Assembly: GCF_947499295.1 (NCBI RefSeq)
Contig: NZ_CANMNP010000008.1
Span: forward strand, 124,001 to 188,000
Source of the DNA: an uncultured Roseibium sp.
GTDB taxonomy: Bacteria > Pseudomonadota > Alphaproteobacteria > Rhizobiales > Stappiaceae
Reading direction: 5' to 3'
DNA: 64,000 nt
Both the position numbers and the translations under genes were made by a program. Shown one piece after another: positions 2,120 to 28,888 of the stretch; the stretch's first letter is position 1, and each line of letters starts with the position of its first letter. The notes under the pieces were generated by a model that was given only the letters and a program-made list of their open reading frames with translations, did not search any database and was not told the DNA's origin.

Positions 2120-4630
2120 CTATTCGGCAGCGGCCTGGTCCGCCTGTTCAGGCCGAGCCGGGAAAGCACATGTGACCGTCGTGCCATTGCCTTCATCGGA
2201 ATCGATCTCAACAGAGCCTCCGTGGAGTTCCACGAAGCTCTTGACGATGGCAAGACCAAGGCCCGCACCCTGTCGCCGTGCGCCTGTGTCGTGACCGACA
2301 AACCGATTGAAGACCTGTGTCAGGATTTCGGCCGGAATACCGTAGCCATGGTCCTTGACGATGAATTTCACCGTATCGTCTTCACGGCTGCAGCTGACAT
2401 CGACGACACCGTTTTCCTCAGAATAGCGAACGGCGTTGGCAATCAGATTGAACAGGACCTGACGCAGCCGTTTTTCGTCGGCGATCATCATGCCGATGTC
2501 GGCAGGGACCTGCGTCCGCAGATTGATCTTTGCTTCGGCGATCCGGTCCTTCAACCCTTCAACCGCCGCAGAGACCGTTGAGGCGACGTCAACCTCACCG
2601 AGGTCCAATTCCATGATACCGGCATCGAGCGTAGCCAGATCAAGAATATCGTTGATGATGGCGAGCAGTGCAGAGGATGAAGACTGGATATATTCCGCGT
2701 ATTCGCCCTGCTTTTCGGAAAGTTCGCCAAATTTCGGATCGGCCAGAAGCTGGGCAAATCCGATGATGTTCGTCAGCGGCGAACGCAGCTCATATGACAC
2801 ATGCTGGATGAAGGCGTTTTTGATCTGGTCTGCCTGCTGCAGAGCCTCGTTCTTTTCAAGCAGCGCCCGCTCGACATTCACGCTATCGGTCACGTCGACG
2901 AAAGTGACAAGCGTGCCACCGTCCGGCAGAGGTACCGTGGCGTAATCCAGAACGTCACCATTGTGCCGCTCAAGACGGCTGACATTTTGAGTGCGGTTGT
3001 CCAGAAGGCCGGTGACGTTGCCGGCAAGCAGATCCCAAGCCTCTTGTTCCGTGTCGCTCAGAACACAGGCTGAAACAACTTCTTTCACATGTGGAAGTTC
3101 CGCCAGTTGGTCTTCTTCAAGGCCCCAAATGCGGCCGAATGCAGGGTTCCAAAGTCGAAGGCGCCCGTCCGAGCCGAACACGGCAACAGCTTCAGACAGA
3201 TTGTCGAGCGTTTCGCCCTGAACCCTTGTGAGCGCATTGTACCGGCTTTCCAGATCCAGCTGCTCAGTCACGTTCTCATAGATATAAGTGACGCCGCCTT
3301 GCGGATGCGGATTGGCGATCACGCGTAAGGTGCGTCCATCGGGCAGGTGCCACCAGCTTTCCCGCGCTTCAAGAGACTGGTAGCTCTCCAGCATCTTGTT
3401 GCGCCAGACCCGGTAGTCGGCCTGTTCGGGCAGCTTGCGTGCGGCCCGGAGTGCGTCGAGTACGGCACCGTCTTCCGGCTGGCCTTCCAGGAAGGACGGG
3501 TCCAGGTCCCATAGCTGACGGAACGCGGCATTGTAGAATTGCAGTTTTCGATCGCTGCTGAATATCGCGACAGCGGCCGCCAGTTGGTCAAGTGTCCGGC
3601 CATGAAATTCTTCGGCACGGCCCATTTCCTTGCGGGACTGCTCCAGCTCACTGATGTCCACGGCAATACCGGCCCCACCGACATTCGCATTGACATCAGT
3701 AACTTCGAAGACGCGGCGTTCACCAGACGCCACAATTGGAATGCGGGCTGAAAAGCAACCGTCCTCTGTTCGCTTCACAGCCATAGCGGTGCGGGCTGCC
3801 GCATCAAGGAAAGTGGCCCCCTTCTTAACGGCTGCATCTGCCGTCGGCATCTCGACCGCCTCTGCATAGGCCGCGTTTGCCCAGATCAGATTGCCCTCGG
3901 CATCTCTTTGCCAGGCAGGTGCCGGCATGGCGTCAAGCAATGCGTGCAGCATATGCAGCTCGCCCGAAATCTTGGCGTTGCGTGCAGCAAGCTCGGCTTG
4001 CATTTGCCGTTCGCCTGTCAGATCACGTAACCGAAGCACCACAGCACCGCCCGTCGTACGGCCAAGCGCCTCGACATAGCTGCCGGTCCGGGTCTTCAAT
4101 GTCGTGGTGAAGGCTTCTCCCGTCCGGAACAACAGATCCAGATGCCTTTCCAGATCACCCGCGCATTTGGCTGTCAGCCAACTGCCGAAGGCCAGCAATT
4201 GCGCCGGAGGACGCGGAACACCGGATGTTTCGGGGAGGATGCCCCAAATCTGAGGCATTGCACCATTGCCGGTCCAAACAATCACCCGCTGTTCATCGGT
4301 GTTGAGCATGGCTTCAAGCCGGTCTACCCGGAACTTGAGGTCGCTCTTTTCCTTTTCCAATGCACTGGTAATCTGGGCCGACTGCTTACGATGGCGGACA
4401 AGTGCGATGGCAGCGGTTACGGCAAATGCGCAGATGCCACCAAATGCACCAAACAGGATCATTGCACCGGGATTGATTGCAGCGGCGGTGTCGGCGAGCA
4501 TGTCGGCTGAGGCCGGAACGCTGGACAAGCCAAAGGCCGTCAACGCCGTACCACCAAGCGCAACTGTTTTCGGACTCCAATCTCGCCACGTCGCGCGTGA
4601 TCGCGCGCCGTCCCTGCTGCCTTTCGGCAT
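2120..4630 (-). CDS. divL: DivL-like multi-PAS histidine-kinase homologue with Tyr at the phospho-acceptor site
   Basis: This 836-residue membrane protein has a hydrophobic N-terminus (22-44), a transmembrane segment (52-77), several PAS-like sensor regions (about 100-590), a dimerisation domain and a HATPase domain (N-box ANAVRYSEENG near 731, G-boxes DHGYGIP and GAGLGLAI). The H-box reads SYELRSPL, so residue 613 is Tyr where histidine kinases have the phosphorylated His (SHELRTPL). This is the hallmark of DivL, the cell-cycle pseudokinase that couples DivK to CckA-CtrA in alphaproteobacteria. Position next to ahcY and tsaE also matches. An ordinary PAS histidine kinase is the alternative, but the Tyr substitution argues against it. 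The ATG at 4630 has AAGGGG upstream. Confidence 0.85.
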   Translation of the reverse strand: MPKGSRDGARSRATWRDWSPKTVALGGTALTAFGLSSVPASADMLADTAAAINPGAMILFGAFGGICAFAVTAAIALVRHRKQSAQITSALEKEKSDLKFRVDRLEAMLNTDEQRVIVWTGNGAMPQIWGILPETSGVPRPPAQLLAFGSWLTAKCAGDLERHLDLLFRTGEAFTTTLKTRTGSYVEALGRTTGGAVVLRLRDLTGERQMQAELAARNAKISGELHMLHALLDAMPAPAWQRDAEGNLIWANAAYAEAVEMPTADAAVKKGATFLDAAARTAMAVKRTEDGCFSARIPIVASGERRVFEVTDVNANVGGAGIAVDISELEQSRKEMGRAEEFHGRTLDQLAAAVAIFSSDRKLQFYNAAFRQLWDLDPSFLEGQPEDGAVLDALRAARKLPEQADYRVWRNKMLESYQSLEARESWWHLPDGRTLRVIANPHPQGGVTYIYENVTEQLDLESRYNALTRVQGETLDNLSEAVAVFGSDGRLRLWNPAFGRIWGLEEDQLAELPHVKEVVSACVLSDTEQEAWDLLAGNVTGLLDNRTQNVSRLERHNGDVLDYATVPLPDGGTLVTFVDVTDSVNVERALLEKNEALQQADQIKNAFIQHVSYELRSPLTNIIGFAQLLADPKFGELSEKQGEYAEYIQSSSSALLAIINDILDLATLDAGIMELDLGEVDVASTVSAAVEGLKDRIAEAKINLRTQVPADIGMMIADEKRLRQVLFNLIANAVRYSEENGVVDVSCSREDDTVKFIVKDHGYGIPAEILTQVFNRFVGHDTGARRQGAGLGLAIVKSFVELHGGSVEIDSDEGNGTTVTCAFPARPEQADQAAAE

Positions 4631-27669: not shown

Positions 27670-28007
27670 CAGGTCCGTGCTCTCTGACTTTTTCCAGACC
27701 CGCAAAACGGCCAGCGTTCGCAAGGTATTGAAAAAATGAATGATTTCGAGGTCAGAAGGTATGACGGTTAAACCGTTCCCCCAAAGCCGCGCCTCAATTA
27801 GCACAGGGTTTCCCAGTGTGCAACTTCGCCAAAAGACTGTTTTTGACGATTCATAGGGGTTTTTTGATAGGCAGGCCTAAAAAGCCATGAAGATCAATGT
27901 CTCCACGCCCGTCTAAACCTTTAGACGGTTTTCCTGCGGCTGCGATTTTTTTGGGACGCACGGCCCTAAAGCTTCCTGGCATCGTCGAGGATCCGCTCGC
28001 GGCAGCC
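27670..28007. other. 338-bp region upstream of atpH
   Basis: No gene is supported. It holds the candidate atp promoter (27795-27823) and a perfect 9-bp inverted repeat CCGTCTAAA / TTTAGACGG separated by two bases (27909-27928). The repeat lacks a T run on the minus strand, so a terminator for the DUF1428 gene is doubtful; it could be an operator. Confidence 0.5.
27795..27823 (-). promoter_or_regulatory. Candidate promoter of the atpHAGDC operon with internal dyad
   Basis: On the minus strand TTGCAC, a 17-bp spacer and TAATTG form a good sigma-70-like promoter about 125 bp before atpH. The spacer contains an almost symmetric dyad CACTGGG-AAA-CCCTGTG with one mismatch, which could be a regulator site. 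This is read by eye. Confidence 0.45.
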
Positions 28008-28367
28008 TTAATAGCTGACAAGAGGCTCAAAACCGCCGAAGATCATGCGCTTCATGCTCATGATTTCGTTGGCATTCGGCATGACCTCCTCCCATCGGGG
28101 ATCCGATTCCATCGTGGCCATACAGGCATCTGCCGTTTTTTGGTCCGGCCAGACAATCCAGGAAAACACTACAGTCTCATCGTCTTCCTTTTTAACAGCC
28201 ATCGGAAAAGACGTGACTTTTCCGTCCGGCACCGCCACGCCCCATGCCTCACAGCAATTCAAGGCGCCGTATTCCTTGAAGAGAACCCACGATTTCTCTG
28301 CGATTTCTTTGTAATCTGCTTTTCGCGCCGTCTTCACCGGTAACAAAAACCCCTGAACATAGGTCAT
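28008..28367 (-). CDS. DUF1428 (YbaA-like) family protein
   Basis: This 119-residue cytoplasmic protein has the family features MTYVQGFLLPV at the N-terminus, FKEYGAL, EAWGVAVPDGKVTSF, and WPDQK followed by MPFD-like MSMKRMIFGGFEPL at the end. The fold is a dimeric alpha/beta (ferredoxin-like) barrel; the function is unknown. A strong AGGAGGG lies upstream of the ATG. It is divergent from a MarR regulator across a 74-bp gap filled by a long palindrome, so it is very likely the target of that regulator. Confidence 0.9.
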   Translation of the reverse strand: MTYVQGFLLPVKTARKADYKEIAEKSWVLFKEYGALNCCEAWGVAVPDGKVTSFPMAVKKEDDETVVFSWIVWPDQKTADACMATMESDPRWEEVMPNANEIMSMKRMIFGGFEPLVSY

Positions 28368-28399
28368 TCACTTGCCCTCCTGGCTGGAAACAGACGCAA

Positions 28400-28445
28400 G
28401 CATCGCATATGATTATGTTGATATCAACGTAATCATATGCGATGC
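28400..28445. promoter_or_regulatory. 46-bp near-perfect palindrome, probable MarR operator
   Basis: Reading outwards from the centre GATATC at 28422/28423, bases pair for 23 positions on each side with a single mismatch (28416 against 28429). The half-site includes GCATATGATTA and GTTGAT. It lies between the divergent DUF1428 and marR genes and covers the marR start codon at 28442. MarR dimers bind palindromes of about 16-20 bp, so this could hold more than one dimer. Confidence 0.8.
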
Positions 28446-28888
28446 ACCCAGATCTGCCACTTTCTACAACACATGAAGTCCGCGACCGCTGTCTTTGCCT
28501 TCATCTTCAGCGCGCTGCGCGTCACGTTGGACGCCGGTTTGATGAGGCATTGCGGCCACTCCAGCTGACGAACGGGCAATTCTCCTTACTCATGGCGCTG
28601 AACCGGCCCGGCGCGCCAAAACTGGGAGAAATCGCCACTTTACTGGTCATGGACCGCACCACGTTGACTGCAAATCTGAAGCCTTTGGTGCGCCGTGACC
28701 TGTTGACGATAGAACCGGACCCCTCGGACCGGCGAAGCCGCAGGCTGCTGCTTAGCGACAAGGGTCGAAAGCTATTGATCGACGCCATGCCTGTCTGGCG
28801 CGCTGTTCATGACGCGATTGATGCCGAACTGGCATCGGTCGACAGCGCACCTATCCGGAAGCAACTGCTAGCTCTCAGTTTCGATTGA
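28442..28888 (+). CDS. MarR-family transcriptional regulator
   Basis: The 148-residue winged-helix regulator shows the family core: LTNGQFSLLMALNRPGAPKLGEIATLL (helix 2-4), MDRTTLTANLKPLVRRDLL (recognition helix) and the wing DPSDRRSRRLLLSDKG. The first ATG lies inside the long palindrome and has no Shine-Dalgarno, so translation may be leaderless or weak. No better start is seen downstream. It probably represses itself and the divergent DUF1428 gene. The ligand is unknown. Confidence 0.92.
   Translation: MHPDLPLSTTHEVRDRCLCLHLQRAARHVGRRFDEALRPLQLTNGQFSLLMALNRPGAPKLGEIATLLVMDRTTLTANLKPLVRRDLLTIEPDPSDRRSRRLLLSDKGRKLLIDAMPVWRAVHDAIDAELASVDSAPIRKQLLALSFD

Follow-up and report, generated by a model that had tools for sequence, protein, structure and literature searches.

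In the 64-kb window (the whole stretch of DNA analysed, 64,000 nucleotides from an uncultured Roseibium sp.), a near-perfect 46-bp palindrome at 28400-28445 sits between two divergent genes, a DUF1428 gene on the minus strand and marR on the plus strand. It is probably the operator of a single MarR dimer, enlarged by a template-switch mirror copy and governing mirror-image promoters of marR and DUF1428. At the centre of the palindrome, a single MarR dimer would bind and regulate its own gene, and in most relatives this operator would lie between the -35 element and the -10 element or start, the transcript beginning probably at or beside the marR ATG. One repressor dimer bound at the dyad would block marR and the divergent DUF1428 gene together, and a ligand releasing the repressor would free both. 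I infer MarR binding, the start sites and the control of DUF1428 from sequence comparison.

The two arms of the palindrome (28400-28422 and 28423-28445) abut without a spacer and pair at 22 of 23 positions, the sole unpaired position being T28416/G28429, the seventh from the dyad. Base composition predicts 8e-8 centres that pair at 22 or more of the 23 positions, and the runner-up among spacerless 23-pair windows across the 64 kb reaches 16/23. The original prediction, a near-perfect 46-bp palindrome with the start codon of marR inside it, thus holds on both points, the ATG (28442-28444) lying at the outer end of the right arm. Three parts can be told apart: a left outer arm (28400-28413), which mirrors the marR side and sits where most relatives have TTGACA; an operator-like core (28414-28431); and a right outer arm (28432-28445), to which sequence and arm pairing assign the marR start codon. 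A dispersed, REP-like repeat was considered and rejected, since the paired arms occur at one place only in the 6.4-Mb genome; the 16-base arm end, with up to two mismatches, occurs at two other places, both single and without a mirror partner. An intrinsic terminator (a stem followed by a T run) was rejected as well, the interval 28200-28650 containing 0 terminator-like sites.

The gene marR (28442-28888, plus strand) encodes a MarR-family regulator of 148 residues, whose product matches the MarR winged-helix models PF01047 (39.5 bits, cut-off 24.6) and PF12802 (33.4 bits, cut-off 27). None of the 9 listed NCBIfam subfamilies (Saro_0803, BagL/FevM, OhrR, HpaR, MarR and others) reached its cut-off, the top score being 46.9 bits against cut-offs of 200 and 230. 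For marR, an upstream start is excluded by an in-frame TAA at 28430-28432, and no alternative in-frame start occurs from there to residue 12. The divergent gene (28008-28367, minus strand, 119 residues) matches the DUF1428 model PF07237 with 129.7 bits (cut-off 27), and a Shine-Dalgarno-like AGGAGGG can be read off the sequence ahead of it (28375-28381, minus strand). Between the end of DUF1428 and atpH lies a perfect 9-bp inverted repeat with a 2-nt loop (27909-27928), next to which TTTT follows on the plus strand.

The central 18 bp of the palindrome, TATGTTGATATCAACGTA (28414-28431), belong to a motif that recurs at the start of marR across relatives. With at least 13 of 18 positions matched, it is found in 184 of 187 loci, the window's own included, while the score of 13 was reached by 1 of 187 shuffled regions and 4 of 178 distinct real regions. 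The loci comprise 45 from named genomes and 142 from searches at the level of genus, family, order and class; the order and class searches are samples of larger groups, and 65 of the 142 are short stretches. Set aside were 24 same-genus loci that hold distant paralogues (L056-L079, at most 39% identity), together with similar matches without a locus, and the operator counts exclude 21 plasmid records carrying marR relatives, L157 and L158 among them. A clear operator was absent from three loci: L148, where the contig ends, L183 and L195. None of 12 pattern matches in viral contigs encoded a marR relative. Merging duplicates reduced the 184 regions to 178 distinct ones. A matrix built from 176 of these, the window clade's own being left out, gives the window core 33.2 bits on its better strand and 30.5 on the other; the next-best score in the whole 64-kb window is 6.1. 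The exact string GTTGATRTCAAC occurs genome-wide once beyond the palindrome, within a 308-codon open reading frame, which fits a local regulator, and the 18-bp form with up to three mismatches occurs at four further genomic places, compared with two per strand for a reversed control pattern; I propose no wider regulon from these counts. An operator in this family is expected to be a palindrome of about 16-20 bp in the regulator's own promoter, and the predicted 18-bp core is of this kind. The comparison therefore supports the idea that a MarR operator overlaps the start of marR, and the identification of the 18-bp core as that operator; its conservation there predicts autorepression of marR.

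The length of the palindrome had been taken as a possible sign that two dimers bind. Forty-six base pairs would indeed accommodate about two dimer footprints, and the arms are completely conserved in the window clade. Against cooperative binding of two or more MarR dimers stand the relatives, which retain the 18-bp core only, and the matrix, which yields one site, at 28414: the best other position in 28370-28480 scores -13.7, the outer arms being unlike the core. Two-dimer occupancy is accordingly very unlikely. The outer arms might instead form a symmetric site for a second, different protein around the MarR core, a reading to which their conservation in the clade and the 6-bp palindrome CATATG within each of them lend something; I give it an equally low probability, because the paired arm copy is found nowhere else in the genome and the reading comes without a known candidate protein. 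A single MarR dimer at the core is the reading retained below.

The arrangement around the operator in relatives suggests how the marR promoter would normally be built. A hexamer matching TTGACA in 5 or 6 positions lies 15-21 nt to the left of the dyad in 133 of 178 distinct regions, compared with 9 of 534 control places. The first in-frame ATG of marR lies 14-21 nt to the right of the dyad in 148 of 178 regions, at exactly 17 nt in 99 of them. Among the 118 regions that combine both features, 113 have a -10-like hexamer ending 5-8 nt before the ATG; the commonest form is CATAAT (21 of these 118, and 34 of all 178 on the marR side). Given the usual distance between a -10 element and the transcription start, this spacing places the start on or near the marR ATG, so that the marR mRNA is likely to be leaderless in most relatives. 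A 4-base Shine-Dalgarno core was found at -18 to -4 (15 nt) before marR in none of 115 regions, an earlier set of the family regions, an absence that is partly forced since the operator fills that place. The layout is not universal: the ATG lies 9-11 nt from the dyad in 18 regions and 30-60 nt away in 10, it is absent from the searched range in two, and eight regions have an additional in-frame ATG upstream of the operator. Leaderless translation, part of the original prediction, is thus likely for most relatives and unsure for the window itself, where TTGACA is absent. It is absent from 45 of the 178 regions, including both rows of the window clade; as 43 of the 176 others also do without it, its absence from this clade is in itself nothing special.

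In the window, the interval 28200-28650 contains two promoter-like sites, compared with 0.3 expected, and they are mirror images of each other. TGGAAA-17-TATGAT (28385-28413, plus strand) points toward marR and has its second hexamer in the left arm; GTGGCA-17-TATGAT (28432-28460, minus strand) points toward DUF1428 and has its second hexamer in the right arm. Each matches only 9 of 12 consensus positions, and both would place transcription starts near the dyad, in which case the window marR may carry a leader of about 20 nt lacking a Shine-Dalgarno sequence. Alternatively, a promoter of the family type would start the marR transcript at the ATG, with a poor -35 element (CATATG in the place of TTGACA). 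Read outward, the left arm gives CATAAT, the commonest -10-like hexamer on the marR side of the family.

These start sites bear on the suggestion that the palindrome is a dual DNA/RNA switch, in which both arms would be transcribed into the marR mRNA and a hairpin would conceal the start codon. RNA spanning 28390-28470 does fold very stably (-36.2 kcal/mol, z -9.4) and takes the AUG into the stem. However, the only plus-strand promoter-like site in 28200-28650 would start transcription near the dyad, none begins upstream of 28385, and the family layout would start the transcript at the marR ATG; in either case the left arm would remain outside the mRNA. RNA beginning at the dyad or at the ATG is structurally unremarkable (z 1.3 each), and the long arms are missing from nearly all relatives. 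A hairpin hiding the start is therefore highly improbable. On the DUF1428 side, the RNA fold has a z of 0.8.

Unlike the core, the long arms are confined to few genomes. Outer pairs 10-23 are matched at 14 of 14 positions in no region but those of the window and its two relatives, the others having at most 9. Arms of at least 23 (one mismatch allowed) occur in 3 of 178 regions, namely the two window-clade rows and L012, and all others have at most 15; shuffled regions reach at most 11 and 460 real control stretches at most 12, apart from one of 17. The window clade consists of three genomes of a single genus (G000, G016 and G017), the coordinates of G016 matching those of Labrenzia sp. THAF82 (L005). 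Conservation of the arms, proposed as a test that could refute the original interpretation, thus gave a divided answer: the outer arms are missing from nearly all relatives that have the regulator and are perfectly conserved in the three-genome clade.

A template-switch product is expected to have arms that pair better than those of relatives and that centre on an inverted repeat already in place. The palindrome fits this, since 184 of 187 loci have the core repeat and the clade and L012 alone have the long arms. In the window clade, the marR side of the operator, comprising the -10-like element and the start codon, would have been mirror-copied to the opposite side, most simply in one template-switch event; the copy would have displaced the usual TTGACA position and left mirror-image -10 elements around a single operator. 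Template switching is a known route from imperfect to more perfect palindromes, and mutations of this class associated with quasipalindromes are alike in that an imperfect inverted repeat is made more perfect (PMC7202029), whereas for the window palindrome the product alone is visible. A template-switch origin of the long arms is inferred from this product because no sufficiently close relative shows the state before copying; beyond the copied arm, relatives are too distant and their alignment too loose for a comparison of ancestral sequence. L012, an uncultured Sphingomonadaceae genome unrelated to the window clade, has at 2950-3003 an inverted repeat around the same operator; its 24-bp arms differ from perfect pairing at one position, are separated by a 6-nt spacer and end at the marR start codon. 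This mirror appears to have arisen independently of that in the window clade, which suggests that the operator layout may be prone to mirror copying.

If template switching built the long arms, these could be a neutral by-product, inert beyond the core. The known perfecting of palindromes by this route fits such a history, as does L012, whose lineage built its own version; in L012 the nearest long upstream open reading frame is codirectional with marR, and minus-strand frames are also present. By contrast, the window and its two relatives share all 46 bp without a change. Over the same distance, marR has 58-59 differences in 447 bases, 39-41 of them at third positions; at the latter rate, 26-28% of third codon positions, about 12-13 changes would be predicted in 46 bases. 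This conservation compares two lineages, the window and a pair differing from each other at 10 of 1100 bases, with marR third positions as yardstick. DUF1428 differs at 35-37 of 360 bases, and the other 32 intergenic bases outside the palindrome, with 2 changes, are likewise well conserved. In addition, the absence of TTGACA means that another element must provide the promoter if marR is expressed. Inert arms are therefore unlikely. For the preferred reading, an enlarged single-dimer operator with two mirror-image promoters, a fuller history can be proposed, of which I am doubtful: a single template switch would have turned a leaderless one-way promoter into a mirror divergent promoter, brought DUF1428, already resident beside it, under the regulator and supplied, in the mirrored ATG, the start of a leader peptide. 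From this ATG a possible leader frame of 11 residues, MLASVSSQEGK (28368-28403, minus strand), runs up to the ATG of DUF1428. The case for it is weak; the peptide is identical in the relative and both nucleotide differences are silent, these being two changes only.

DUF1428 itself lies between priA and atpH, with no marR in the stretch, in 11 other genomes of the genus (L162-L171 and L176), none of which has a match to the window marR at E 1e-35. In L176, DUF1428 matches only in part, and in L169 and L171 the search shows a TGA inside the match. A priA tree of 14 rows supports the window clade (96/94) and does not fix its placement, favouring neither a gain of marR in the clade nor a loss from the other genomes. 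More widely, 72 of 187 loci show DUF1428-like sequence, the clade included and with many stretches too short to reveal it, and DUF1428 was called as the longest divergent open reading frame in 21 of 115 regions; the pairing of marR and DUF1428 thus recurs. Judged by eye from the translations, the divergent partner differs among many relatives and seems to be one of several small proteins (VOC-type, DUF1428, DUF899-like and the like), DUF1428 being the one tested.

Among known MarR-family systems, HucR of Deinococcus radiodurans is likewise divergent from an enzyme gene, that for uricase, with a single intergenic site, and ligand increases expression of the divergent genes (PMC5487221). It differs in partner gene and operator, and the accessible text of that paper describes no 46-bp mirror including a start codon. 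CrtR of Corynebacterium glutamicum is likewise a divergent regulator with perhaps one genomic site; its deletion derepresses its own gene about 2-fold, and the crtR gene is reported to be leaderless (PMC5401885). As far as that account's accessible text goes, its site is short, contains TTAA and is no long palindrome, and the organism belongs to another phylum. Leaderless mRNAs have been reported in numbers in Alphaproteobacteria, with 375 in Caulobacter crescentus (PMC4117421) and 171 in Sinorhizobium meliloti (PMC3616915), whereas those of the marR family are predicted from promoter spacing. The literature search found no account of this marR operator or of the 46-bp palindrome, and nothing linking DUF1428 with MarR. 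Judged by title, none of the matches listed for the 10-base operator core concerned a MarR regulator, and none of those for the core together with MarR concerned bacteria.

The palindrome lets the part that probably binds the repressor be separated from a part that would have been added later, and offers a testable case in which a single replication error could create a symmetric divergent promoter. For Alphaproteobacteria, the comparison predicts a group of MarR regulators that would be autorepressed and, for the most part, translated from leaderless transcripts.
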